Below are positions 4,901-44,045 of a stretch of DNA of 64,000 nt, one piece after another. The notes under the pieces were generated by a model. The model did not search any database, had not been told where the DNA came from, and was given only the letters and a program-made list of their open reading frames with translations. Where the stretch lies: NCBI RefSeq assembly GCF_003568845.1, contig NZ_CP030127.1:775501-839500 (forward strand), read 5' to 3'. Within the stretch, counting starts at the first letter, position 1, and the number at the start of each line of letters is the position of its first letter. This DNA comes from Indioceanicola profundi. GTDB taxonomy: Bacteria; Pseudomonadota; Alphaproteobacteria; Azospirillales; Azospirillaceae. A program made the translations under genes and the position numbers.

Positions 4901-5959
4901 ATGGCCGCCGACCAGAAGTTCCCTGACGACCTTATCATCCGTACTGGTGAAGAACTGGAGCGGGAACGTCATGGGCGGGTAACTCCCACAGCCATTCAAA
5001 TCCGAATGGGCGGCGGCAACCGCCAACGTATTGAGAAGGTCTGGACAGCTCACGTCGGAGCTCGGCCCTCATCATCCATGCCCGCTGACGGCAAGCACAT
5101 CGGCGTGCCGGACAGCGATGCCGCAATGCTGATCGAGGAGTTTGCCTCCCAGAGCATGGCCGCGGCCCGACGGCTCATGGAGGAGGCTTTCCGCGCAGGC
5201 TTTGACAAAGCCGAACGTGCGGTTCGGGACGACAGGGAGAGGGCGCAAGCAAAACAGCATATCGCGGCGCTCGAGATGCAGGAGCTGGAAGCAGCGCTCC
5301 GGCACCAGGAGGCTGCCACCGAGGAGGCGCAACGCTCATCCGAACGCCATGCCCAGGAAGCAGCCGATGCCAAGGCGGCATTCCGCGATCTGCAAGCCGA
5401 TATGGCAGTCCTCCGCGAACAGATCCGGTCTCTGACCGAAGCAGTGGCGGAACAGCGGCTTCAGCGTGATACGGCGGAGGCAAGGGCCGCGACCGCTATA
5501 TCGCGTTTGGAGTCCGCACAGGAAAAGATAATGGACCTACGCGAGAGCGCGGCGGTAACCGAAGCTGCATTGGCCGAAACAGAACGTCGTGCGCAGTCGC
5601 TGGACGCACGTTGCAATGTACTGGACGAGACCCTGACCGAAGCACGTTCGGCAAGGATGGAACTGGAGGCCGAACTGGCATCGACACGCGCCCGGAATTC
5701 CGCATTGGAAGGGCAGCTCCGGTCCGCTGAGGAGAGGCAGCAAGCCTGCGAACAATGTCGTGCCGACCTTGCAGAAGAAACGGCACGCCTGTTCAAGGAT
5801 GGCACCGCATCCGCAGCCCGTGCCGCGACATTCGAGGAGCGCTGCGAGGGCCTGAGCCATGAGCTGGCCCGGCTCCGCAGCGAGTTGGACCGTGAACGGG
5901 AGCGACGGATCAGGCTTGAAGCTGCCCAACCAGGGCCGGTGGAGCCGCACCAGGATTAA
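4901..5959 (+). CDS. KfrA-like DNA-binding protein with long coiled coil
   Basis: A 352-residue protein. Residues about 1-50 (FPDDLIIRTGEELERERHGR...) resemble the KfrA N-terminal winged-helix domain that binds operator DNA. The rest, from about 85 to 345, is a nearly unbroken Ala/Glu/Arg-rich alpha-helical coiled coil. KfrA of IncP plasmids is an autoregulator that also helps partition; chromosomal relatives are common and mostly unstudied. The palindrome directly upstream supports self-regulation. No parA, parB or replication gene is in the window, so it is not evidence that this is a plasmid. Confidence 0.75.
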   Translation: MAADQKFPDDLIIRTGEELERERHGRVTPTAIQIRMGGGNRQRIEKVWTAHVGARPSSSMPADGKHIGVPDSDAAMLIEEFASQSMAAARRLMEEAFRAGFDKAERAVRDDRERAQAKQHIAALEMQELEAALRHQEAATEEAQRSSERHAQEAADAKAAFRDLQADMAVLREQIRSLTEAVAEQRLQRDTAEARAATAISRLESAQEKIMDLRESAAVTEAALAETERRAQSLDARCNVLDETLTEARSARMELEAELASTRARNSALEGQLRSAEERQQACEQCRADLAEETARLFKDGTASAARAATFEERCEGLSHELARLRSELDRERERRIRLEAAQPGPVEPHQD

Positions 5960-6054
5960 GACTGATCCAGGATGGCCGCTCGACGTTCCGGCGCGGGAGC
6001 CGTGCTGGAAAGTTCCGTTCGGATCATTACGCCCCGTCGAATCCCAATTGCAGA

Positions 6055-6069
6055 TGCGAATGACTTGCA
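6055..6069 (+). promoter_or_regulatory. Candidate iron-regulator (Fur-type) site
   Basis: TGCGAATGACTTGCA is an imperfect palindrome of TGCAA-type arms about 70 bp upstream of the Bfd start, followed by an AT-rich TTATAGAG. It resembles Fur/Mur-type boxes reported in alphaproteobacteria, and bfd genes are usually iron-repressed. The match is by eye only. Confidence 0.35.
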
Positions 6070-6135
6070 TTATAGAGCAGAGAGCAGCCGGCGTGGACCG
6101 GCAGGTGCCTTCGCCGCATCGGGAGCAAGCTCTTC

Positions 6136-6339
6136 ATGTATGTCTGCGTCTGCAATGCGATCAATTGTAAGACTGTGCGCCGAGCGGCGGAGAACGGGGC
6201 TGGCACCGTGGCCGGCGTTTTCAAATCGGTGGGCAAGACCCCGCAGTGCGGTCGTTGCTTCACCACTATGCGCGGCATGATCGAAGAGCACGCGCCAGCA
6301 TCCTGCGTGCCCGTGCCTGTCGCCGTCGCAGCGGAATAA
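6136..6339 (+). CDS. bfd: Bacterioferritin-associated ferredoxin (Bfd-like [2Fe-2S] protein)
   Basis: A 67-residue protein that starts MYVCVCNAI and ends its core with TPQCGRCFTTM. This gives the C-x-C near the N-terminus and the C-x2-C about 32 residues later that ligate the [2Fe-2S] cluster in Bfd. Bfd delivers electrons to the bacterioferritin heme to release stored iron. No bacterioferritin gene is adjacent. A possible Fur-type site lies upstream. Length and cysteine spacing match the family. Confidence 0.88.
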   Translation: MYVCVCNAINCKTVRRAAENGAGTVAGVFKSVGKTPQCGRCFTTMRGMIEEHAPASCVPVPVAVAAE

Positions 6340-6416
6340 GACCGCCGGAGAATCATGGCGGCAACCGCTCGTCCCCTGTTCTGTTGCCCCTGCATCTACC
6401 GATGCGGAGCAGCGGA

Positions 6417-6683
6417 ATGGCAAAGGATCACGGAAACCAGATCAAGAATGATGCCCAGTACGAGGCGATGCGCGCCAAGGGCATGAGGAAGGAAAGGGCG
6501 GCCCGGATCGCCAATGCCAACGCCCAGGAAGGTGGAAACCCCGCCAGTGAGCGCGGCGGTCATGCCTCGAAGTACGAATCGCGCAGCAAGTCCGATCTTT
6601 ATGATGAGGCCCGGAAGATCGGAATCGAGGGCCGCTCACGGATGAGCAAGGATGAGTTGATCGACGCGCTGCGGCACCATTGA
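6417..6683 (+). CDS. Small Rho-N-domain-like protein (DUF7218-type)
   Basis: An 88-residue hydrophilic protein. The first half is a Lys/Arg/Asn-rich segment (KNDAQYEAMRAKGMRKERAA). The C-terminal part, KSDLYDEARKIGIEGRSRMS followed by KDELIDALRHH, has the helix-extended-loop-helix pattern of the Rho termination factor N-terminal/SAP-like fold. Proteins of this shape are common small conserved proteins in proteobacteria and actinobacteria, with no assigned role. ATG 6417 is chosen because the conserved block MAKDHGNQIKN starts there; the upstream part of the frame looks non-coding. Confidence 0.75.
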   Translation: MAKDHGNQIKNDAQYEAMRAKGMRKERAARIANANAQEGGNPASERGGHASKYESRSKSDLYDEARKIGIEGRSRMSKDELIDALRHH

Positions 6684-6700
6684 CCTGATCCGCACATGTG

Positions 6701-6733
6701 AAAAGGGGCGTAGGTGGCTTCCACCCGCGCCCC
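6701..6733 (-). terminator. Terminator of the liv operon
   Basis: GGGGCG-TA-GGTGG, loop CTT, CCACC-CG-CGCCCC form a stem with one 2-nt internal mismatch. Read on the minus strand it is followed by TTTTC. It lies 22 bp past the binding-protein stop codon, between converging genes. Confidence 0.65.
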
Positions 6734-6754
6734 AACTCATTTCCGCCCTGTACG

Positions 6755-7978
6755 TCAGCCCTTGACCAGCGGGCAGGCGCTCTTTTCCAGCGGCGTATAG
6801 GCATCGTCGCCCGGGATCGTACGGATCAGCTTGTAATAGTCCCAGGGCTGCTTGCTTTCGGTCGGGCTCTTCACCTCGAACAGGTACATGTCCTTGGTCA
6901 TGCGGCCGTCTGCGCGGACCTTGCCGCCATTCTCACCGACGAAGGCATCCTGGACCGGCAGCTCGCGCATCTTCTCCGCCACGGCCTTGCTCTCATCGGT
7001 GCCGGCGGCTTCAACGGCCTTCAGATAGTGCAGCACGGCGGAATAGGTGCCGGCGTGGATCATGTTGGGCATGCGGCCCATTTTCTCGAAGTAACGCTTC
7101 GACCACTCCCGCGACTGGTCATTGCGGTCCCAGTAGAAGCCTTCCGTCAGGGTCAGACCCTGCGCGGTCTTCAGGCCGAGCGCATGGGCGTCGGTCAGGG
7201 TGAACAGCAGACCGGCAAGCTTCTGACCGCCCTGGACGATGCCGAACTCCGCTGCCTGCTTGATGGCGTTCGTGGTGTCCGTGCCGGCATTGGCCAGCCC
7301 GATCACCTCGGCCCCGGAGGATTGCGCCTGCAGCAGGAAGGAGCTGAAATCGGATGTGTTCAGCGGGTGGCGCACAGCCCCCACCACCTTGCCGCCGGCA
7401 GCCTTCACGAACTCGCCGGTATCCTTCTCAAGCTGGTGGCCGAAGGCATAATCGGCGGTCAGGAAGTACCAGCTCTTGCCGCCGGCCTCCACGACTGCGC
7501 CGCCGGTGCCGCGCGACAGCGCATAGGTGTCGTAGGCCCAGTGAAAGCCCGTGGGAGAACAGGCATCGCCGGTCAGGCGGGAGGTAGCCGCACCGGTCAC
7601 GATGTCGATCTTTCCCCGCTCCTTCGCCAGTTCCTGCACGGCAAGAGCCACTGAGGAGGTCGTCAGCTCTGCAATCATGTCGACGCCTTCGGCATCGAAC
7701 CATTGGCGGGCGGTGGACACGCCGATGTCAGGCTTGTTCTGGTGGTCGGCATTGAGCAGTTCGATTTTCTTGCCCAGTACGGTGCCGCCGACTTCATCAA
7801 TGGCCATCTGCGCGGCCACGACGGAGCCCTTGCCGCCGAAGTCGGCATAGGGGCCGGACTGGTCGTTCAGAACGCCGATCTTGACCACATCGCCGGACAC
7901 CTGCGCGGCGGCGGCGGATGCGCCGAACGCCAGGGCGATGCCGGCGGCGGCGGCGAGGCAGCGAGACTTGAGATTCAT
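6755..7978 (-). CDS. Branched-chain amino acid type ABC transporter substrate-binding protein
   Basis: A 407-residue periplasmic type I binding protein. A cleavable signal peptide is clear at residues 1-25 (hydrophobic core then ASAAAAQ). The mature part starts VKIGVLNDQSGPYADFGG, the typical opening of the Leu/Ile/Val-amide family. ATG 7978 fits the signal peptide and is preceded by GGGAGGA. It is the last gene of the operon, 65 bp after livM. Its closest-looking relatives bind diverse ligands (amino acids, amides, aromatic acids), so the substrate is not fixed by the sequence. Confidence 0.88.
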   Translation of the reverse strand: MNLKSRCLAAAAGIALAFGASAAAAQVSGDVVKIGVLNDQSGPYADFGGKGSVVAAQMAIDEVGGTVLGKKIELLNADHQNKPDIGVSTARQWFDAEGVDMIAELTTSSVALAVQELAKERGKIDIVTGAATSRLTGDACSPTGFHWAYDTYALSRGTGGAVVEAGGKSWYFLTADYAFGHQLEKDTGEFVKAAGGKVVGAVRHPLNTSDFSSFLLQAQSSGAEVIGLANAGTDTTNAIKQAAEFGIVQGGQKLAGLLFTLTDAHALGLKTAQGLTLTEGFYWDRNDQSREWSKRYFEKMGRMPNMIHAGTYSAVLHYLKAVEAAGTDESKAVAEKMRELPVQDAFVGENGGKVRADGRMTKDMYLFEVKSPTESKQPWDYYKLIRTIPGDDAYTPLEKSACPLVKG

Positions 7979-8043
7979 GAAAATCCTCCCAGAGATGTTC
8001 TCAGCGCCATTGTCATGGGGCCGGCGCTTTTGCCCCCTGCGGA

Positions 8044-9063
8044 TCAGAGCTTTATCTTCAGCCAGTGGGCAATCTCGCCCATGATGCCCCGGCGGAACAC
8101 CAGCACGCAGAAGACGAAGACCAGGCCGATGACCACGGTCACCGGCAGGTTCATGGTGGCGAGGTAGTTCTGAAGCATGACGACGATGAAGGCTCCGACC
8201 ACCGGACCCGTCATGGTGCCGATCCCGCCCAGCAAGGTCATCAGCACCACCTCGCCCGACATCTGCCACTGCACGTCGGTAAGAGTCGCAAGCTGGAACA
8301 CCAGCGCCTTGGTTCCCCCTGCCAGACCGGCCAGAGCCGCCGAAAGGACGAAGGCGCCCAGCTTGTACTTTGCGACATCGTAGCCGAGCGAGATCGCCCG
8401 CTGCTCATTCTCGCGGATCGCCTTCAGCACCTGCCCGAAGGGCGAATGGACGATGCGGTAGATGAACAGCGCCCCGCCGGCGAAGATGGCCAGCGTAGTG
8501 AAGTACATGGCGTAGGGATTGTACAGGTTGATCAGCCCGAACAGGTGCCCGCGCGGCACGCCCTGGATACCATCCTCACCACCCGTGAAGGGAGCCTGCA
8601 GGAAAACGAAGAAGACCATTTGCGACAGCGCCAGCGTGGTCATGGCGAAATAGATGCCCTGCCGCCGGATGGCCAGCCCCCCGAAAGCCAGCCCCATCAC
8701 TGCCGCCGCGGCTGTACCGGTCAGCAGCGCCAACTCCGGGGTCAGCCCCCAGACCTTGGCCGCATGGGCGGTGACATAGGCGGCTCCCCCGAAGAAGGCG
8801 GCATGGCCGAAGCTGAGAAGGCCGCCGAAACCGATCAGGAGATTGAAGGCGCAGGCGAACAGCGCGAAACACAGCGCCTTCATCAGGAAAACCGGGTAGA
8901 CGAAGAACGGGGCCGCCGCCAGCAGGATCAGTCCGGCCGCGGCAACCACCAGGAGCGCCCGTTCACCACCCCGGGATTGCGCAGCGCCGGCCCCCGCGGG
9001 AACCGTCGAATGGTCGGCGGCCTTGCGCGCGGGCGCTTCCTCCGTCGTGTGCTGCACCACCAT
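8044..9063 (-). CDS. livM: Branched-chain amino acid ABC transporter permease LivM
   Basis: A 339-residue inner-membrane permease with about ten hydrophobic segments. The family signatures LIGFGGLLSFGHAAFFG and the cytoplasmic loop IRENEQRAISLGYDV, which contacts the ATPases, are visible. The N-terminal 30 residues are a hydrophilic, Ala-rich tail before the first membrane segment. Its ATG overlaps the livH stop codon in ATGA, so the two permeases are translationally coupled. Confidence 0.9.
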   Translation of the reverse strand: MVVQHTTEEAPARKAADHSTVPAGAGAAQSRGGERALLVVAAAGLILLAAAPFFVYPVFLMKALCFALFACAFNLLIGFGGLLSFGHAAFFGGAAYVTAHAAKVWGLTPELALLTGTAAAAVMGLAFGGLAIRRQGIYFAMTTLALSQMVFFVFLQAPFTGGEDGIQGVPRGHLFGLINLYNPYAMYFTTLAIFAGGALFIYRIVHSPFGQVLKAIRENEQRAISLGYDVAKYKLGAFVLSAALAGLAGGTKALVFQLATLTDVQWQMSGEVVLMTLLGGIGTMTGPVVGAFIVVMLQNYLATMNLPVTVVIGLVFVFCVLVFRRGIMGEIAHWLKIKL

Positions 9064-9950
9064 CAGGCCGCCCTCCCGAACAGGCCGGCCGGCTTCACCA
9101 GAAGCACGATGGCCATGATGACGAAGATCACGATGTTCGCGGCCTCCGGGTAGAAGACCTTGGTCAGCCCTTCCACCATCCCCAGCCCGAAGCCGGTCAC
9201 CACCGCGCCCAGGATCGAACCCATGCCGCCGATCACGACCACGGCAAAGACCACGATGATCAGGTTCGATCCCATGAGCGGGTTCACCTGGTACATGGGT
9301 GCCGCCAGAACGCCGGCGAACCCGGCCAGCGCCACGGCTGCGGCGAAGGTGCCGGTGACCAGAAGAGGCACGTTGATGCCGAAGGCCTGCACCAGCTGCG
9401 GACGTTCTGTGGCTGCGCGGAGATAGCTGCCCAGCTTAGTGCGCTCGATCGCGTACCAAGTGCCTATACAGACGACGAGGCTCGCCGCCACCACCCAGGC
9501 CCGGTATGTGGGCAGGTACATGAAGCCCAGATTATTGCCGCCCTGCAGCAGCTCAGGCACGGGATAGGGCTGGCCGGAAACACCGTAGTAGTGGCGGAAC
9601 AGCCCTTCGATGACCAGCGCCAGGCCGAAGGTCAGCAACAGCCCGTAGAGCGGGTCCATGCGGGCGATCCGACGCAGCATCGTCCGCTCGATCACCACCC
9701 CGAGGGCGGCGAGGATCAGCGGCGCCAGGATCAGCGCCGGCCAGTAGCCGATGCCGAAATACTCCAGCAGCAGCAGGGCTGCGAAAGCGCCCACCATGTA
9801 CAGCGCGCCATGGGCGAAGTTGATCACCCCCAGCATGCCGAAGATCACCGCCAGCCCCAGGCTGAGCAAGGCGTAGAAGGCCCCGTTGATCAGGCCCAGC
9901 AGCAACTGACCGAACAGCGCCTGGGGCGGAATGCCCAGAAGCTCGAACAT
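9063..9950 (-). CDS. livH: Branched-chain amino acid ABC transporter permease LivH
   Basis: A 295-residue inner-membrane permease. The N-terminal LLLGLINGAFYALLSLGLAV and the GVINFAHGALYMVGA segment are diagnostic of LivH. The EAA-like loop near residue 190 (RAATERPQLVQAFGINV) contacts LivF/LivG. AGGGAGGAA lies 5 nt before the ATG at 9950. This ribosome-binding site is complementary over 9 nt to the candidate small RNA at 43.94-44.02 kb. Confidence 0.9.
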   Translation of the reverse strand: MFELLGIPPQALFGQLLLGLINGAFYALLSLGLAVIFGMLGVINFAHGALYMVGAFAALLLLEYFGIGYWPALILAPLILAALGVVIERTMLRRIARMDPLYGLLLTFGLALVIEGLFRHYYGVSGQPYPVPELLQGGNNLGFMYLPTYRAWVVAASLVVCIGTWYAIERTKLGSYLRAATERPQLVQAFGINVPLLVTGTFAAAVALAGFAGVLAAPMYQVNPLMGSNLIIVVFAVVVIGGMGSILGAVVTGFGLGMVEGLTKVFYPEAANIVIFVIMAIVLLVKPAGLFGRAA

Positions 9951-9977
9951 ATATGTTCCTCCCTGCTCGGACCGGGA

Positions 9978-10682
9978 TCAAACGCCCAGGTACCGCGCCA
10001 GCTTTTCGGACTCGGCCTCAAGCCGGTCGTTCGGGATCATGTCCACAACGCGCCCCTCCTCCATCACGTAATGACGGTCGGCGACGGTGGAGGCGAAGTG
10101 GAAATTCTGCTCCACCAGCAGGATGGTGAAGCCCTTGCGCTTCAGCTCGGCGATGATGCTGCCGATATGCTGGACGATCACGGGCGCCAGCCCTTCCGTC
10201 GGCTCGTCCATCAGAAGCATGGTGGCGCCGGTTCGGAGCACCCTGGCAATCGACAGCATCTGCTGCTCACCGCCCGACAGCTTGGTGCCCTGGCTCTTCC
10301 GCCGCTCCTTCAGCCGTGGGAACAGGCTGTAGACCTCCTCCACGGAGAGGGCGCCCGGCTTCACGACCGGAGGCAGCATCAGGTTCTCCTCCACCGTCAG
10401 GCTGGCGAAGATGCCGCGGTCGTCCGGCACATAGCCTACGCCCTGTCGGGCGATGCGGTCCGGCCGGAGGCCGGTCAGCTCCTGCCCGTTGAGGCGGATC
10501 GAGCCTTCCTGCCGGTCCAGCAGGCCCATGATGGCTTTCAGCGTGGTGGTCTTGCCGACGCCGTTGCGGCCGATCAAGGTGACGACCTCCCCGGCTTCCA
10601 CATCGAACGCGACGTCGTGGAGGATGTGACTTTCTCCGTAGAACCCTTTGAGGTTCCGGACCGACAGCATGGTATCAGGCAT
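9978..10682 (-). CDS. livF: Branched-chain amino acid ABC transporter ATP-binding protein LivF
   Basis: A 234-residue ATPase: Walker A GRNGVGKTT, signature LSGGEQQMLSIARVL, Walker B LLMDEPTEGLAP and the switch His in LLVEQN. The length is that of LivF. The first ATG at 10682 overlaps the end of livG by 8 bp; a second ATG at 10670 (MLSVRNLKGFYG) also fits family starts. Confidence 0.9.
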   Translation of the reverse strand: MPDTMLSVRNLKGFYGESHILHDVAFDVEAGEVVTLIGRNGVGKTTTLKAIMGLLDRQEGSIRLNGQELTGLRPDRIARQGVGYVPDDRGIFASLTVEENLMLPPVVKPGALSVEEVYSLFPRLKERRKSQGTKLSGGEQQMLSIARVLRTGATMLLMDEPTEGLAPVIVQHIGSIIAELKRKGFTILLVEQNFHFASTVADRHYVMEEGRVVDMIPNDRLEAESEKLARYLGV

Positions 10683-33172: not shown

Positions 33173-35457
33173 TCCCGAAGCCACGCATGCCCGACCTTCT
33201 GCATGGCCCCTCCACGCAGATCGGCAAACCCGTCCGCCGGGTGGATGGCCGCCTGAAGGTGACCGGTGCCGCCAAATATGCCGGCGAGTTCAATGTGCCC
33301 GGCCTCTTGTACGGCTATATCGTCTCCAGCACCATCGCGAAGGGCCGCATCGCCCGGCTCGACACATCGGAGGCGATGAAGCTGCCGGGCGTAATCCATG
33401 TCTTCACCCATGAGAACCGGCCGGATCTGGCTTGGCTGGACCGGAAATGGAAGGACCAGGACTCGCCCAGGGGTTCCCCCTTCCGGCCGCTCTATGACGA
33501 CCGCATCCTGCATTCGCTTCAGCCCGTGGCGCTGGTGGTGGCGGAAAGCCTTGAGCTCGCCCGCTATGGCGCCCGGCTGGTGGAGGTCGAGTATGAGGCG
33601 GAGCCACACCAGACCAGCTTGGTCATGAACCGGGACATCACCTTCGCGCCCGGCAAGGAAAAGGGCGGCTTCGAGCCGCCACCGCCACCACGCGGCGATC
33701 CCGACGGGGCGCTGGCCGGGGCGGAGGTGAAGGTGGACGTGGAATTCACACAGGCCCCGGAATTCCATAATCCCATGGAGCTGTTCGCCAGCACCGTGGT
33801 CTACCACGATGACGGCACGCTGACGGTCTATGACAAGACCCAGGGCGTCCTGAACACCCAGAGCTATATCACCAAAGTGTTCAACCTGCCGAGTTCCGGC
33901 GTGCGCGTCCTCTCGCCCTTCGTCGGCGGGGCGTTCGGGTCCGGCCTGCGGCCGCAGCACCAGCTCTTCATGGCCGTCATGGCGTCCACCGTGCTGAAGC
34001 GGTCGGTGCGGGTGGAGATGTCGCGCCCGCAGATGTTCAGCTTCGGCCACCGGCCGGAAACCTGGCAGCGGGTGGCGCTGGGGGCGAAGCGGGACGGCAT
34101 CCTGACGGCCATGATCCATGAGGCCGTGCAGGAATGCTCCCAGTTCGAGAACTATGTGGAGATCGTCGTCAACTGGTCCGGCCAGCAGTACAAATGCGAC
34201 AATGTCCGGCTGGACTACAAGCTGTCCCGGCTGGACGTCCATACGCCACTCGACCAGCGCGCCCCCGGAGCTGCCACCGGCGTTCCAGCGCTGGAAATCG
34301 CGATGGACGAGCTGGCCTACCAGTTGCGGATGGACCCGGTCGACCTCAGGCTGAAGAACTATGCCGAGATCGATCCGAACACCGGAAAACCATTCTCAAG
34401 CAAGGAGTTGCGCGCCTGCTTTGAAAAAGGCGCTGAACGGTTCGGCTGGTACAGGCGGCAACTGGAACCACGCTCCATGCGCGAAGGGCGGGAGCTGATC
34501 GGCTGGGGTATGGCGGCCGGGGTATGGGATGCCATGCAGGGGCAAGCCTCCGCCAAGGCGGTGCTGGGCGTGGACGGCAAGCTGGTGGTGTCCAGCGCCA
34601 CGGCCGACATCGGCACCGGCACCTATACGGTGATGACCCAGATCGCCGCCGACCTGATGGGCCTCCCCATCGAGGATGTGACCTTCGAGCTTGGCGATTC
34701 CTCCCTGCCGCAATCCCCCATCGAGGGCGGGTCCTGGACCGTGTCCACGGTCGGGTCTGCGGTGAAGGCAGTGTGCGACATCATCCGCAGCCGGCTCATC
34801 GCTCTGGCCGGCAAGATGAACGGCTCATCCCTCGGCGGGGCGTCGGAGGATGAGGTGATGTTCGCCGAGGGCCACATCATCGTGAAGGACGATCCAGGCC
34901 GGCGCGTCGCCATCAAGGATGTGATGCGCGCCGCAGAGCTGACAGTGATCGAGGAGAAGGCGCTATCCGTTCCCTATGCCCTTGCCCGTATGAAACACAC
35001 GCTGGGCACCCACTCCGCAATCTTCGCGGAGGTGCGGGTGGATGAGGAGCTGGGCACGGTGCGGGTCACCCGTGTCGTCAGCGCCGTCGCCGCGGGGCGG
35101 ATCATCAACCCGAAGACCGCGGGCAGCCAGATCTCCGGCGCCGTCGTCTGGGGGCTGGGCATGGCGCTGGAGGAGGAGGGGCTGACCGACCATGTACTGG
35201 GCCGCTACATGAACCACGATCTGGCCGAGTACCATGTGCCGGTGAATGCGGACATCCACGACATCGACGTGATCTTCGTGGAGGAGCATGATGAAGTCGT
35301 GAACCCGCTGGGGGCCAAGGGCGTGGGTGAGATCGGCATCGTCGGCGTGCCGGCCGCCATCTCCAACGCCATCTTCCATGCCACCGGGGTACGTGTCCGC
35401 GACTTCCCCATCACGGTGGACAAGATCCGGGCCGGCATGCGCCTGCACCTGATGTAG
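33169..35457 (+). CDS. Aldehyde oxidoreductase molybdenum-binding subunit (PaoC/YagR-like)
   Basis: A 762-residue large subunit. [22 protein letters not shown] is the usual opening. The cofactor-binding segments [11 protein letters not shown] and [14 protein letters not shown] (the usual QRAPG-x-E/A site) are present. [15 protein letters not shown] near the C-terminus holds the catalytic Glu. The complex oxidises aromatic and aliphatic aldehydes to acids with water as oxygen source. No XdhC/PaoD-type maturation gene follows, so that factor must be encoded elsewhere. Confidence 0.92.
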
Positions 35458-35483: not shown

Positions 35484-36365
35484 CTAAGTGCCCCGGCCGT
35501 TCCGGTGGGCGATCTCCAGATACAGCGCGCTGTGGTCCCGGCCGCCCTCGCCACGGCTGTCGAGATCGCGGAACAGGTCGCGCCCGAGGGCGGAGAAGGG
35601 CAATCGCAGGCCGAATTCCTCCGCCACTTGAACAATGGTCGCCATGTCCTTGAGCTGCGTAGATACTTTGCCGCCGGGGACGAAAGTACGATCCAGCATC
35701 CGCTGCCCGTGGACCTGGAGGATGCGACTGTCCGCGAAGCCACCCATCAGGGCCTGACGCACCGCCGCGGCATCCGCCCCCGCAGCCTCCGCAAGCAGCA
35801 CGGCTTCCGCCACCGCACCGATGGTGATGCCGACGATGGCCTGGTTGCAAAGCTTGGCGATCTGGCCGGACCCAGCGGGGCCGACATGCACGGCCTTGCC
35901 CAAAGCTGCGAAGACGCCCTCCGCCCTGGCGAAATCCTCCGCCTTGCCACCGGCCATGATGGCCAGGGTGCCGGCCTTGGCGCCGACCTCCCCGCCACTG
36001 ACCGGCGCGTCCAGATACCCCGCGTGTTGGCCGGCCAGCCGTTCGGCATGCGCCTTGGCCAGAGCCGGCGGGATGCTGGACATGTCGATGACCAAGCAGC
36101 CGGGCATCAGGGCCCCGATGACCCCGCTTTCCAGCAGCACTGCATCCACTGTAGGCCCGTCGGCCAGCATGGTGATCAGCACGTCGGCGTCCTGCGCCGC
36201 CATGGCCGGGTCGGCGGCAAGACTGGCGCCGCGCTCCACCAGGGGCTGGGCCTTGTCCGCCGTTCGGTTCCAGACGGTAAGCGGGAACCCGGCATCGAGA
36301 AGGCGCCCCGCCATGGGGGCGCCCATGATACCCGTGCCCAGGAAGGCGATCCGGGGCCGCGTCAC
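35484..36365 (-). CDS. NAD(P)-dependent 3-hydroxyisobutyrate dehydrogenase-family oxidoreductase
   Basis: A 293-residue beta-hydroxyacid dehydrogenase. IAFLGTGIMGAPMA is the dinucleotide-binding loop, DAPVSGGEVGAKAGTLAIMAGG the substrate loop, and GSGQIAKLCNQ holds the catalytic Lys. Family members act on 3-hydroxyisobutyrate, tartronate semialdehyde or threonate. It begins at GTG 36365 in a GTGA overlap with the SAF-domain gene, the last gene of a GntR-led operon. Confidence 0.85.
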   Translation of the reverse strand: MTRPRIAFLGTGIMGAPMAGRLLDAGFPLTVWNRTADKAQPLVERGASLAADPAMAAQDADVLITMLADGPTVDAVLLESGVIGALMPGCLVIDMSSIPPALAKAHAERLAGQHAGYLDAPVSGGEVGAKAGTLAIMAGGKAEDFARAEGVFAALGKAVHVGPAGSGQIAKLCNQAIVGITIGAVAEAVLLAEAAGADAAAVRQALMGGFADSRILQVHGQRMLDRTFVPGGKVSTQLKDMATIVQVAEEFGLRLPFSALGRDLFRDLDSRGEGGRDHSALYLEIAHRNGRGT

Positions 36366-37687
36366 TGGGCCGCCCTCGCCAATTGCGGAGCGAAGCGGCT
36401 TTCCATCTCCCGCCTCACCCGCACGGCCTCGCTGTCCAGCACCTCCACATCGCTCCACCGGACGATCTGGCCGGCGGGCACGTCGCGCAGCAGCTTGACC
36501 TTGTGGGCAAGCCCGATGGGGAGCGCGCCTTCCTCGGCGCTGCGCTGGGCCGGGATCACTTTGCCCCAGACGGTGTAGCCGCCCTCCCCATCCAGCATCT
36601 CGCCAGCCTTCAGCGGCCGCTTGGCGACCGAGGCGACATCGCCCACCCAGGCGCGGGTCTGGCCCGTCGGTTCCCCGCGCAGGGCGGCGGACAGGACGCT
36701 GATGCCAAGCTCCAGCCCGATCAGATGATAAGGCTTGTACATAGCGGCGTAGCGGCCGGTGCTGTCCGTCTTCAGCCCATATTGCCGGAAGCAGGCCGTT
36801 GCGTAATCGTTGGGCGCCTTCAGCACCACATAGACGCCCCAGCGCAGATCGCGGAAGACCGGCCGGCCGTCCCGCTCCAGGCTGCTGACCACCTCGACCA
36901 TGCCGTCACGCGGCAGAATGCCCCCAGCCTCACGCGCGCGCAGCACATGGGGCAGGTCGTCGACACCGCAGGGCGGAAAGCTGAGACCGTCGTCCGGCAC
37001 CGCCAACTCGCAGGCATTGGCGATGGCGGCCATTTCAATCGCCGACTTCGTTCCATCCAGGAAGCTGTTGAACATCTGGGCATTCATGCCACCGCGCCTG
37101 GCCTCCTCCGGCGTCAGGCCGTAATGGGACCAGACATCGTCGGGGGTGACGGCATGGTAAATCGGCAGGTACTTGGTGCCCTTGCCGGCCGCCGCCACCT
37201 CGAACCCGGTGGCGCGCGCCCAGTCCACCAGTTCCGAGGTGAGGGCCGGCTGGTCGCCATAGGCCATGGAGTAGACAACGCCCTTCGCCCGCGCCTCTTC
37301 CGCCAGAAGCGGGCCAGCCAGGACATCCGCCTCCACATTCACCATCACCACATGCTTGCCGGCCTGGATGCAGGCCTGGGCATGGGCGATGCCGGCGGCG
37401 GGGTGGCCGGTCGCCTCCACCACCACTTCCACATCAGGGTGTTGGCAGAGGGCCTTGCCATCCTGCAGGAACTCCGTCCGCTCTATGCGGGCGGCGTCCC
37501 ACCCCACGGTGGCGCAGGCGGAGCGGGCCCGGTCGGGGTCGAGGTCGGCGATGGCGGCGACCTCCAGCCCCGGCGTGGTCGGCACCTGGGACAGGAACAT
37601 GGAGCCGAACTTGCCGGCCCCGATCAACCCGACACGGACCGGCCTTCCCTTGGCGGCGCGCTCTTGCAAGAGGCGGTATAGGTTCAT
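36362..37687 (-). CDS. Predicted homoserine-dehydrogenase-like oxidoreductase with C-terminal SAF domain
   Basis: A 441-residue protein of the COG4091 type. The N-terminal Rossmann fold is VRVGLIGAGKFGSMFLSQV. The middle part has VVVEATGHPAAG, AGKHVVMVNVEADV, GDQPALTSELVDWA and AAGKGTKYLPIYH. The C-terminal part from about residue 370 is SAF-like (RPLKAGEMLDGEGGYTVWGK through LLRDVPAGQIVRWSDVEV). The true substrate of this group is not settled; it is not a normal homoserine dehydrogenase. It is flanked by an EctD-like dioxygenase and a hydroxyacid dehydrogenase, which points to catabolism of a small polyol, hydroxyacid or amino acid derivative. Confidence 0.75.
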   Translation of the reverse strand: MNLYRLLQERAAKGRPVRVGLIGAGKFGSMFLSQVPTTPGLEVAAIADLDPDRARSACATVGWDAARIERTEFLQDGKALCQHPDVEVVVEATGHPAAGIAHAQACIQAGKHVVMVNVEADVLAGPLLAEEARAKGVVYSMAYGDQPALTSELVDWARATGFEVAAAGKGTKYLPIYHAVTPDDVWSHYGLTPEEARRGGMNAQMFNSFLDGTKSAIEMAAIANACELAVPDDGLSFPPCGVDDLPHVLRAREAGGILPRDGMVEVVSSLERDGRPVFRDLRWGVYVVLKAPNDYATACFRQYGLKTDSTGRYAAMYKPYHLIGLELGISVLSAALRGEPTGQTRAWVGDVASVAKRPLKAGEMLDGEGGYTVWGKVIPAQRSAEEGALPIGLAHKVKLLRDVPAGQIVRWSDVEVLDSEAVRVRREMESRFAPQLARAAQ

Positions 37688-37714
37688 GCGCTGTCTCTCC
37701 CTGTTTTCTTATTG

Positions 37715-38518
37715 TTATTCGGCGGCTAGGACCGGTTGTTGCCGTGCCAGTTGAAGCAGGGCGTCGTCGCTCGACGGCTCGATCGGCGTGAAGTCGCGGT
37801 GCGCGATCCAGTCCGGCCGGGTCGGAGTTCGAATGTAGTTCGAAACGGCGTTGAGCGTCAGATAGACAATGGTGCGGCCATAGGGGGTGATGTTGCCGGC
37901 GCTACCATGGACCAGGTTGCCATGGAACATCAGCACGCCGCCCGGCTTGCCGACCGGGGCAACGATCCCGCCCTCCTCCACCAGACGCGTCACCGTGGCC
38001 TGATCCAGCGTCCAGAGCGGGTAGGAGGTAGTCTGAAGGTCGTGGCCCGCCGGCAGCACGCCTTCCTTATGGCTCTTCGGAACCAGCATCAGAGGGCCGT
38101 TGATCGGCATCACCTCGTCGATGAAGACGGCGATGTTCATGGCCTTCGGCTCCGGCATGCCGTCGTCGCGCGCCCAGGTGCCGTAATCCTGGTGCCATTG
38201 CCAGACATCGCCGTTGAAGGCTGCCTTGGCGTTCACCTTGAACTGGTGCATGTACAGCTTCTCGCCGAAAAGCTGCTCCACCGGTTCGATCAGGCGCGGG
38301 TGCCGGCCCAGGATGCCGAAGGCGTCATTGTAGGTGTGGGCGGCGAAGGCGGTGCGGGGTGCGCCCGATTTCTCCCGCCAAACCTCCTGCCGGTCGGTGG
38401 CGTAGATGGCCTGCGCCTCGCGGCGGAGCAGGGCCACCTCCTCCTCCGAGAAGCATTCGGGCAGGAACAGCCAGCCCTGCTCATCGAAGTCGGCGAGCTG
38501 CTGAGGGGAAAGCTTCAT
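37715..38518 (-). CDS. Phytanoyl-CoA dioxygenase-family hydroxylase, ectoine hydroxylase-like
   Basis: A 267-residue Fe(II)/2-oxoglutarate dioxygenase. GDVWQWHQDYGTWARDDGMP contains the HxD iron ligands, and FHGNLVHGSAGN with YGRTIVYLTLNAVSN the distal His and 2-oxoglutarate Arg. These segments and TSYPLWTLD and PDWIAHRDFTPI closely resemble ectoine 5-hydroxylase EctD, but no ectABC genes are nearby and the operon looks catabolic. GGAGG precedes ATG 38518. The substrate is unknown. Confidence 0.8.
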   Translation of the reverse strand: MKLSPQQLADFDEQGWLFLPECFSEEEVALLRREAQAIYATDRQEVWREKSGAPRTAFAAHTYNDAFGILGRHPRLIEPVEQLFGEKLYMHQFKVNAKAAFNGDVWQWHQDYGTWARDDGMPEPKAMNIAVFIDEVMPINGPLMLVPKSHKEGVLPAGHDLQTTSYPLWTLDQATVTRLVEEGGIVAPVGKPGGVLMFHGNLVHGSAGNITPYGRTIVYLTLNAVSNYIRTPTRPDWIAHRDFTPIEPSSDDALLQLARQQPVLAAE

Positions 38519-38579
38519 GGCGTGAATCCTCCGTCTATCCGGCTCTTGACGGCCGTGATGGGTTGGAGCGGCCGCCTTC

Positions 38580-39281
38580 TCAAGCAGCGGTCCGCCGGGA
38601 CAGGCGCAACACGGTTTCGTTCCGTGCACGGTCGGTATGGCGGCGGGCGGCCTCCGCCGCCCTGTCGCCATCCCCCGCCAGGATAGCGAAGAGGATGGCG
38701 GCGTGTTCCGCCCAGATAACGGGCCGGCCGGCGGCATCCGCCAGCACCATGCCCATGGACCGTTTCAGGTGCGGCCACTGAGCCGCCACCGTCTCCTCCA
38801 CGGCGCTGTTGCCGCTGAGACGGTAGATAGCGCTGTGAAAGGCTACGTCCGCCTCAATATAGGACCCGACGCCGGCCTCGGGCCCGAGCTCCTGACCGGC
38901 GGCCAGGGCAGTACGGACGGCATCGACCTCCGCCGCCGCGGCGGCCTTGCGCGCCACCCGCTCCGCCGCCAATCGGGCGGCAAGCTGCTCGATCACCGTG
39001 CGCACCTGATAGAGGTCGTTGATGCGGGCAGCCTCCACATGGGCCACGATCAGGCCTCGCTTCCCGGACTGTTCCAGCAGGCGCTCCCGCCTCAGCAGTT
39101 GCAAAGCATGGCTGATCGGCTGGCGGGAGACGCCCAGCATCTCCGCCAACTCCCCCTGGCGGATGCGGTGCCCCGCCGGCAGGGTGCCATCGACTATGGC
39201 CGTCAGGAGCCGCTGATGAACCTGATTGATCAGAATCGGCTGGTTGCCAAGTGGCTCCATCAGCGGCCCTGCCCTGAACAT
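38580..39281 (-). CDS. GntR-family regulator with FCD domain
   Basis: A 233-residue regulator. The winged helix spans about 15-80 (NQVHQRLLTAIVDGTLPAGH, LGVSRQPISHALQLL) and a helical FCD domain follows. It is upstream of, and probably controls, the EctD-like/SAF/hydroxyacid dehydrogenase operon. The ATG at 39281 touches a perfect 16-bp palindrome; starting at ATG 39260 would leave that site 24 bp upstream, which is more natural, so the start is uncertain. Confidence 0.82.
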   Translation of the reverse strand: MFRAGPLMEPLGNQPILINQVHQRLLTAIVDGTLPAGHRIRQGELAEMLGVSRQPISHALQLLRRERLLEQSGKRGLIVAHVEAARINDLYQVRTVIEQLAARLAAERVARKAAAAAEVDAVRTALAAGQELGPEAGVGSYIEADVAFHSAIYRLSGNSAVEETVAAQWPHLKRSMGMVLADAAGRPVIWAEHAAILFAILAGDGDRAAEAARRHTDRARNETVLRLSRRTAA

Positions 39282-39284
39282 GGA

Positions 39285-39300
39285 ATTCGGAATTCCGAAT
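39285..39300. promoter_or_regulatory. Perfect 16-bp palindrome, probable GntR operator
   Basis: ATTCGGAATTCCGAAT is fully self-complementary and lies immediately upstream of the GntR gene. It is also less than 200 bp from the phosphate transporter start on the other strand. Autoregulation by the adjacent FCD-type regulator is the likeliest role. Confidence 0.6.
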
Positions 39301-43732: not shown

Positions 43733-44045
43733 CCGGTCGGTACCGCTGCACTGGCCGCAAGGGAGCATTGCTGCATCTGCAAAGACCGCGATGCAACATT
43801 ACGGCGCCTTTCTGAAAGCCGCAGGATTCCAAGGTTCTCCGAGGTTTGGGTGGGATTTCCTTGCTGGATCGTCATTTCAGAAACCGAATGGTTCGAGAAA
43901 AAAGGGCTTCCCATGCTGCGGTGCAATACGTAATGTCTGTCTCGCGGCGTTCGCGCCGCACGCCTTCTTGGGCGTTTCCTCCCTAAACTCAGGCCGCCGT
44001 TACTGGCGGCCTTTTTTCTTTTCAGGGTTCTGGCAGGCAGCGAAC
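43733..44045. other. Intergenic region of 313 bp
   Basis: No protein gene. The right half contains the second candidate small RNA and its possible promoter. Its terminator could also end the SDR transcript and faces the LysR gene. Confidence 0.6.
43943..44022 (+). ncRNA. Candidate anti-Shine-Dalgarno small RNA, copy 2
   Basis: Hairpin GCGGCG-UUCG-CGCCGC (43944-43959) is followed by a 5-bp hairpin (43960-43975), an unpaired UUCCUCCCUAAACUCA (43976-43991) and a 7-bp terminator stem (43992-43998 with 44005-44011) ending TTTTTTCTTTT. The 17-nt block TCCTCCCTAAACTCAGG (43977-43993) is identical to copy 1 on the other strand at 15682-15698. The possible promoter TTCCCA-N17-TAATGT (43908-43936) is weak. 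The stable UUCG tetraloop hairpin and shared loop argue for an RNA gene rather than only the terminator of the SDR gene. Confidence 0.65.

Follow-up and report, generated by a model that had tools for sequence, protein, structure and literature searches.

A putative locally controlled catabolic operon of Indioceanicola profundi pairs a PhyH-type dioxygenase with a DXR-II-like oxidoreductase

A candidate operon for an orphan oxidoreductase group

Four minus-strand genes, located within a 64,000-nucleotide stretch of the Indioceanicola profundi genome (contig NZ_CP030127.1, positions 775,501 to 839,500; this whole stretch is referred to here as the window), are believed to constitute a locally controlled catabolic operon. 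In order of transcription, they encode a GntR/FCD regulator, an Fe(II)/2-oxoglutarate dioxygenase of the PhyH family (here PhyH), a DXR-II-like oxidoreductase which fits the DLO2 group (here DRL), and a beta-hydroxyacid dehydrogenase of the 3-hydroxyisobutyrate dehydrogenase (HIBADH)/tartronate semialdehyde reductase type. It is proposed, with a probability which we place at about 0.5, that PhyH hydroxylates a small carboxylate, that DRL uses NAD(P) to convert the product of this reaction, and that the HIBADH-type enzyme completes the conversion. The DLO2 group has been without a function since its definition in 2013, none having been found since in the literature searched; an enzyme that recurs as its partner, together with a local regulator and a defined operator-like site, makes this orphan family testable, with the ligand of the regulator expected to be a substrate or intermediate of the pathway.

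A sequence-only reading of the window had described the four genes and a GTGA overlap between the last two. Open reading frames and Pfam domains confirmed that the genes are real and correctly placed, and the 4-base overlap between the stop codon of drl and the GTG start codon of the dehydrogenase gene is visible in the sequence. As a four-gene set the description held in part: all four genes are present, but conservation across species extends to GntR-PhyH-DRL only.

Co-conservation of the PhyH- and DRL-encoding genes

The phyH gene (positions 37715 to 38518, minus strand; 267 amino acids) is separated by 27 bases from drl (positions 36362 to 37687, minus strand; 441 amino acids). A neighborhood survey had been suggested as a check in the sequence-only reading, for which a lack of co-conservation would have counted as a refutation; instead, the pair proved to be co-conserved. 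Among the best 80 of at least 528 genome_contigs loci with a DRL relative, many of them from Bradyrhizobium (tblastn, 1e-8), this PhyH was encoded in the fetched stretch at 51, of which 45 also carried the GntR gene. PhyH was not seen at the other 29 loci, two of which (L058 and L077) have less than 300 bases upstream.

A sample of the phylum comprising 398 genomes yielded PhyH matches at 1e-30 in 38 genomes, 18 of which were counted at an identity of at least 55% (the best of the rest reached 44%), and DRL matches at 1e-30 in 50 genomes, 36 of which were counted as possessing a copy of at least 46% identity (the 14 that were dropped had copies of 29 to 40% only). DRL was present in all 18 PhyH genomes (Fisher p 1.4e-21, with no correction for relatedness) and was adjacent to PhyH in 17. 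With the genus that contributes nine of the 18 counted once, 10 of 10 possess DRL. The genome with a nonadjacent pair, G213, encodes DRL 6.4 kb from PhyH on the other strand; neither the genes between these two nor the neighbors of unlinked PhyH copies were evident shared pathway genes. The 66 adjacent PhyH-DRL pairs, which include repeats (two being second fetches of loci L032 and L033), were all encoded on the same strand with gaps of -32 to 215 bases.

DRL, by comparison, is often encoded without PhyH. Twenty-eight genomes with a PhyH-less DRL were assessed (29 were queried and L073 was left out), and a PhyH match of any kind at 0.001 turned up in 8 of these, with 3 having one of at least 60% elsewhere in the genome. 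In a DRL tree of 69 rows, from which L084 and L103 are missing since no DRL anchor was called, PhyH linkage marks 20 rows and requires at least five changes on well-supported branches. Because PhyH is seen almost only with DRL, whereas DRL frequently occurs without PhyH, the dioxygenase is placed upstream of DRL in the proposed pathway, and this pattern of gene occurrence suggests that it probably feeds DRL. Beyond its broad presence in Bradyrhizobium, the GntR-PhyH-DRL set is encountered in Skermanella and other bacteria, a distribution from which it follows that the compound concerned may be supplied by plants or soil. Most neighboring genes in these relatives were named by reading the starts of their proteins, with some loci seen in part and a subset confirmed by profile match or annotation.

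DRL fits the DLO2 group of DXR-II-like proteins

DRL combines a Rossmann domain with the Pfam domains DRL_cat (4.9e-59) and SAF (7e-06), and its structural model (predicted local distance difference test score [pLDDT] of 95.9) matches Brucella abortus DXR-II (PDB 3upl/3upy) nearly end to end (Z 48.2, root mean square deviation [rmsd] 1.7, 413 residues, 32% identity; 4.4e-59 by sequence). Homoserine dehydrogenases are also found among the fold matches (Z 17.8 to 18.7), and DXR enzymes match the fold as well as or better than these. The SAF domain and the COG4091 family named in the sequence-only reading thus stand, but its generic dehydrogenase label gives way to that of a DXR-II-like oxidoreductase in view of the full-length DXR-II match.

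DXR-II, DLO1, and DLO2 were defined in PMC3847144, where, in the parts of the paper available to us, the position of DXR-II Thr229 is described as Pro, Ser, or Ala in DLO2, DLO2 members are placed in Bradyrhizobium, Rhodospirillum, and Pelagibacter, and neither a function nor operon partners are given for them. Lys191 of Brucella DXR-II corresponds to Lys169 of the window DRL, and Lys193 to either Thr171 or Lys172 depending on the alignment. Thr229, which anchors fosmidomycin in the Brucella enzyme and belongs to the substrate-anchoring set conserved in functional DXR-II, is replaced in the window DRL by Ser215. The same position is occupied by Ser (27), Pro (6), or Ala (5) across all 38 DLO2-like rows and by Thr in the 3 DXR-II-like rows, while an additional stretch at approximately residues 184 to 192, with Trp186 in 38 of 38 DLO2-like rows, is gapped in all 3 of the DXR-II-like ones. 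In the DRL tree, for which the AT-rich loci L219 and L243 were read from open reading frame lists and L249 was left out, the window protein belongs to a 63-row group (support 100/99) that is separate from the DXR-II-like L246 to L248. The DLO2 assignment is based on this residue pattern and on the genera listed in PMC3847144, as the named sequences of that paper lie outside the tree. On these grounds, the window DRL appears to be a DXR-II-like oxidoreductase which fits DLO2; it shares the Ser/Pro/Ala rule with this group, to which the partnership with PhyH and GntR is added here. The literature searched (partial and mostly open papers) contained no functional study of DLO or DXR-II-like proteins and no link between these and PhyH plus GntR; in the part seen of a further paper, COG4091 was used merely to model DXR-II (PMC10663253).

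A DRL 46% identical to that of the window is encoded at L243 (positions 7980 to 10159) in an AT-rich genome of 1.2 Mb, with a one-base overlap with an EamA transporter gene; that a genome of this size has kept a DLO2-like gene hints that its function is useful. DRL copies 73 to 77% identical to that of the window were also found in records titled Terriglobia MAG (L035), Dehalococcoides MAG (L077), and Frankia sp. (L068), two of which fall among alphaproteobacterial rows of the tree; these are likely to represent misbinned contigs or mislabeled records.

The dioxygenase resembles amino acid and ectoine hydroxylases

PhyH (Pfam PhyH, 1.5e-29; AlphaFold2 model pLDDT 94.1) belongs to the EctD/GriE/proline hydroxylase H11 group. 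Its best fold matches are the leucine 5-hydroxylase GriE (PDB 5nci; Z 36.9, rmsd 1.4, 253 residues, 34% identity by VIA-align) and the trans-3/4-proline hydroxylase H11 (PDB 7e07 and 8h81; Z 35.9, rmsd 1.9, 254 residues, 42% identity by VIA-align), with the ectoine hydroxylase EctD (PDB 4q5o and 4mhr) also matching closely (Z 33.2, rmsd 1.5, 243 residues, 37% identity; 37 to 38% over 242 to 243 residues across structures). The HxD...H iron ligands H109, D111, and H204 and the 2-oxoglutarate-binding arginine R215, roles which are assigned by homology, were invariant in the 36 aligned rows.

The retention of iron ligands and the likeness to EctD noted in the sequence-only reading, which had also recommended comparing the predicted pocket with that of EctD, extend to the residues reported to contact the product. 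According to the part of PMC6890836 available, 5-hydroxyectoine is surrounded in EctD by Gln127, His144, Thr149, Trp150, Arg280, and Leu284; the corresponding positions in the window PhyH are Q92, H109, T114, W115, R234, and I238, so that the two proteins differ at one of the six, where Leu is replaced by Ile, and agree at the other five. R234, the equivalent of Arg280, was invariant in all 36 rows. The position of EctD Thr149 is occupied by Phe in H11 and Val in GriE, and the pocket of the window enzyme is consequently not that of either hydroxylase. PhyH also differs from EctD in its operon context and in its score against the EctD equivalog model TIGR02408, which is half of the cutoff (167.8 versus 336.5 bits), nor is it encoded in an ectoine producer.

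The regulator is associated with a single close operator-like palindrome

The product of gntR (positions 38580 to 39260, minus strand; 226 amino acids from the ATG at 39260, or 233 if the ATG at 39281 is the start codon) combines a GntR winged helix (Pfam, 5.6e-12) with an FCD domain (1.6e-23), placing it in the FCD subfamily, whose members usually control catabolic genes. Just upstream of gntR, at positions 39285 to 39300, lies the perfect, strandless 16-bp palindrome ATTCGGAATTCCGAAT. This was the only match without mismatches in the genome (contig positions 814785 to 814800); allowing up to three mismatches returned 12 other places, all with three, against two places for a reversed control pattern, and the 14-bp core of the palindrome occurred in one place.

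Of 57 gntR-phyH loci, many of which are close relatives and not independent, 54 possess a 16-bp palindrome (7 or 8 of 8 pairs intact) within approximately 80 bases upstream of gntR, compared with 40 of 1,140 base-shuffled control sequences. The palindrome varies with lineage, being ATTCGGAATTCCGAAT in the window and Skermanella aerolata, ATACGGAATTCCGTAT in most Bradyrhizobium loci, and TCTGTATACAGA as the core in G257, G364, G484, and G497. When the 14-bp core was sought in 16 genomes, exactly one place was found in 12, each about 0.75 to 0.85 kb upstream of phyH, which is the position of gntR. The exceptions included G007, with two other places and a variant at gntR, G016, with a variant, and G027, whose contig begins inside gntR. 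Inspection of the two G007 core matches and of two near-matches in G025, all distant from the operon, did not reveal a larger regulon; one site precedes another GntR-like gene, and the others are near genes without an evident link by our own reading of the proteins. As the genome contains only one close operator-like site, the regulator appears to be local, and this arrangement would be consistent with an autoregulated operon in which GntR binds the palindrome and represses transcription as long as its ligand, probably the substrate or an intermediate, is lacking.

The fourth gene belongs to a DRL-linked dehydrogenase clade

The last gene of the operon (positions 35484 to 36365, minus strand; GTG start, 293 amino acids) encodes an enzyme with NAD_binding_2 (1.5e-48) and NAD_binding_11 (2.9e-30) domains which resembles the tartronate semialdehyde reductase/3-hydroxyisobutyrate dehydrogenase family (PDB 4dll, E 8.6e-84; 1yb4) at the family level. 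Its best NCBIfam match is the tartronate semialdehyde reductase equivalog TIGR01505, but its score of 271.9 bits falls below the cutoff of 340.75, and phylogenetically it belongs to a separate, DRL-linked clade. The tree has 35 rows, comprising 30 of the 53 matches found in 11 genomes, four plasmid-encoded enzymes, and that of L120. Within the clade, 11 of 12 rows were DRL adjacent, the exception being L263, while two DRL-adjacent dehydrogenases from IlvD-type clusters fell outside it. Eight of the 11 DRL-adjacent members originate from PhyH-less DRL clusters with some of the LysR, ABM, and TRAP genes (partly annotated and partly our own reading), indicating that the window joins two DRL partners that are mostly seen apart.

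Proposed pathway and alternative explanations

The proposed catabolic route would commence with hydroxylation by PhyH of a small carboxylate which may be amino acid-like or cyclic imino acid-like. DRL would then act on this product in an NAD(P)-dependent reaction, which may be a simple dehydrogenation or an oxidation coupled to a shift of the carbon skeleton, and the HIBADH-type enzyme would act on the resulting beta-hydroxyacid or semialdehyde. The substrates may be either hydroxy-amino acids or sugar acid-like compounds, and in TRAP-linked relatives, import may take the place of the PhyH step predicted for the window operon as the source of the acid. The hydroxylation followed by two oxidations put forward in the sequence-only reading was a guess as regards the latter, given that DRL possesses a reductoisomerase fold and may isomerize as well as transfer hydride. 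A more specific and rather doubtful extension of this scheme is that the DLO2 proteins are catabolic oxidoisomerases, applying the chemistry of DXR and ketol-acid reductoisomerase in the oxidative direction to an unphosphorylated hydroxycarboxylate whose hydroxyl, introduced by PhyH, enables the skeleton shift; no catabolic route of this kind was found in the literature searched.

Several observations weigh against the proposed route. Its fourth gene was detected in the PhyH-DRL operon of three genomes only (that of the window, G027, and G484) and in the fetched stretch of none of the 80 genome_contigs loci (tblastn, 1e-8), although five of these stretches cover less than 900 bases beyond drl. 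The support of the DRL-linked dehydrogenase clade, 93/87, is just below the mark which the tool sets for a firm branch, and the correlation between PhyH and DRL distances (28 nonredundant pairs, Mantel r 0.93, permutation p 0.0001), which in itself speaks for the pairing, could also be expected from shared vertical inheritance alone. No transporter gene is present within the operon, and neither this DRL group nor this PhyH had been assigned a substrate, activity, or phenotype in the literature searched. Furthermore, the other close partners of DRL are diverse, encompassing a lactonase, an IlvD/Edd dehydratase, a class II aldolase, a Rid protein, an enoyl coenzyme A hydratase, an alpha/beta hydrolase, and EamA, a range which argues against overly precise claims regarding its chemistry.

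A possible though improbable alternative is that DRL and the HIBADH-type enzyme constitute a sugar acid or hydroxyacid module for which PhyH is one of several suppliers, with relatives relying on TRAP import or a lactonase. Three annotated plasmid clusters combine DRL with an ABM protein (annotated as a putative quinol monooxygenase) and this type of dehydrogenase. Each of them also carries genes for a sugar ABC transporter, PfkB or ribokinase, and MurR/RpiR, and those of Limimaricola and Sinorhizobium have TRAP genes as well; the last enzyme of the window groups with the dehydrogenases of the ABM/TRAP clusters. A dehydrogenase, IlvD/Edd, DRL, and SMP-30 occur together in Phaeobacter, and a class II aldolase gene lies 26 bases before drl in Roseibium. 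However, the TRAP- and IlvD-linked DRLs belong to other subclades and differ at pocket positions (GKGMN, GRGHK, and GKGTK), such that their substrates may differ, the dehydrogenases of two IlvD-linked clusters lie outside the DRL-linked clade, and the substrates of the closest PhyH relatives of known structure are amino or imino acids and ectoine, not sugar acids. Two of these relatives, H11 and GriE, would instead suggest a free amino or imino acid hydroxylase of the proline, leucine, or pipecolate type, whose product would be a hydroxy-amino acid processed by a homoserine dehydrogenase-like DRL. This reading, which we likewise consider possible though improbable, would accommodate the homoserine dehydrogenases among the DRL fold matches, an amidohydrolase gene that comes next to the operon in two genomes from a single family, and a Rid-family gene overlapping drl in a Mesorhizobium; it is countered by Thr in place of the Phe or Val of H11 and GriE, by the equal or better fold match to DXR enzymes, and by the absence of an aminotransferase or deaminase gene within the operon. 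It is also conceivable, albeit quite unlikely, that the operon serves metabolite repair or detoxification and not growth on a carbon source, as the missing transporter, the single close operator-like site, and the very diverse DRL partners of other species would allow, but FCD-type regulators are generally catabolic and the TRAP-linked DRLs also appear to be so.

Two roles with better-known chemistry are less compatible with the data. Hydroxylation of imported ectoine by PhyH would explain the near identity of its product-contacting residues to those of EctD, and yet ectoine synthase was found in only 3 of 23 carrier genomes (20 being without it), as was the ectoine hydrolase EutD at scores above the cutoff, and neither is encoded in the genome of the window. 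The absence of ectoine genes perceived in the sequence-only reading is therefore valid for ectoine synthase across the whole genome; its suggestion of a compatible solute as the substrate fared less well, in view of these counts and of the proline and leucine hydroxylases being the nearest solved enzymes. Together with the low TIGR02408 score, these results render an ectoine hydroxylase very unlikely, and ectoine biosynthesis or catabolism was rejected as a general role. The whole-length match to Brucella DXR-II might similarly be taken to mean that DRL backs up isoprenoid synthesis as a DXR-II, a role which was rejected as extremely improbable: DXR-I is present in all 23 carrier genomes, including that of the window, the Thr229 position is occupied by Ser215 as described for DLO2, dioxygenase and regulator genes lie alongside drl in one operon, and, according to the accessible part of PMC3847144, a DXR mutant was not rescued by the four DLO1/DLO2 proteins tried.

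DRL neighborhoods in other species and further features of the window

On a Phaeobacter inhibens plasmid (L254, positions 5402 to 10375), genes for a HIBADH-type enzyme, an IlvD/Edd dehydratase, DRL, and an SMP-30 lactonase form a tight cluster with overlaps around drl, thereby pairing a reductoisomerase-fold enzyme with a member of the dihydroxyacid dehydratase family; G050 (L120) harbors a similar set of DRL, IlvD/Edd, and HIBADH-type genes. The amidohydrolases encoded directly downstream of GntR-PhyH-DRL(-HIBADH) in two genomes of one family (L229, positions 5346 to 6869; L230, positions 6308 to 7993) are of the Amidohydro_3 type and possibly perform a substrate-releasing step. In Mesorhizobium sp. 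J18 (L057, positions 7415 to 9096), the Rid-family gene overlaps drl by 4 bases and a leuB-like gene follows immediately. Homoserine catabolism was considered in light of a plasmid-encoded homoserine dehydrogenase of Rhizobium leguminosarum (PMC10228743 and PMC3333776) and did not progress beyond a lead, as nothing in the parts seen of these papers ties it to COG4091. PhyH and GntR proteins of a Rhizobium are named in PMC7950203, where the text available draws no link between them. The locus tag blr7815 yielded nothing beyond a gene list in PMC6321122, and no informative paper was found on D-apionate oxidoisomerase, considered as a chemical analogue.

Downstream, the operon runs against a convergent gene for a molybdopterin-binding dehydrogenase, whose stop codon is at position 35457. 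Elsewhere in the window, positions 43955 to 44027 of the plus strand match the Rfam suhB/mmgR small RNA (56.8 bits against a cutoff of 41), the sole RNA family above its gathering score within the window.

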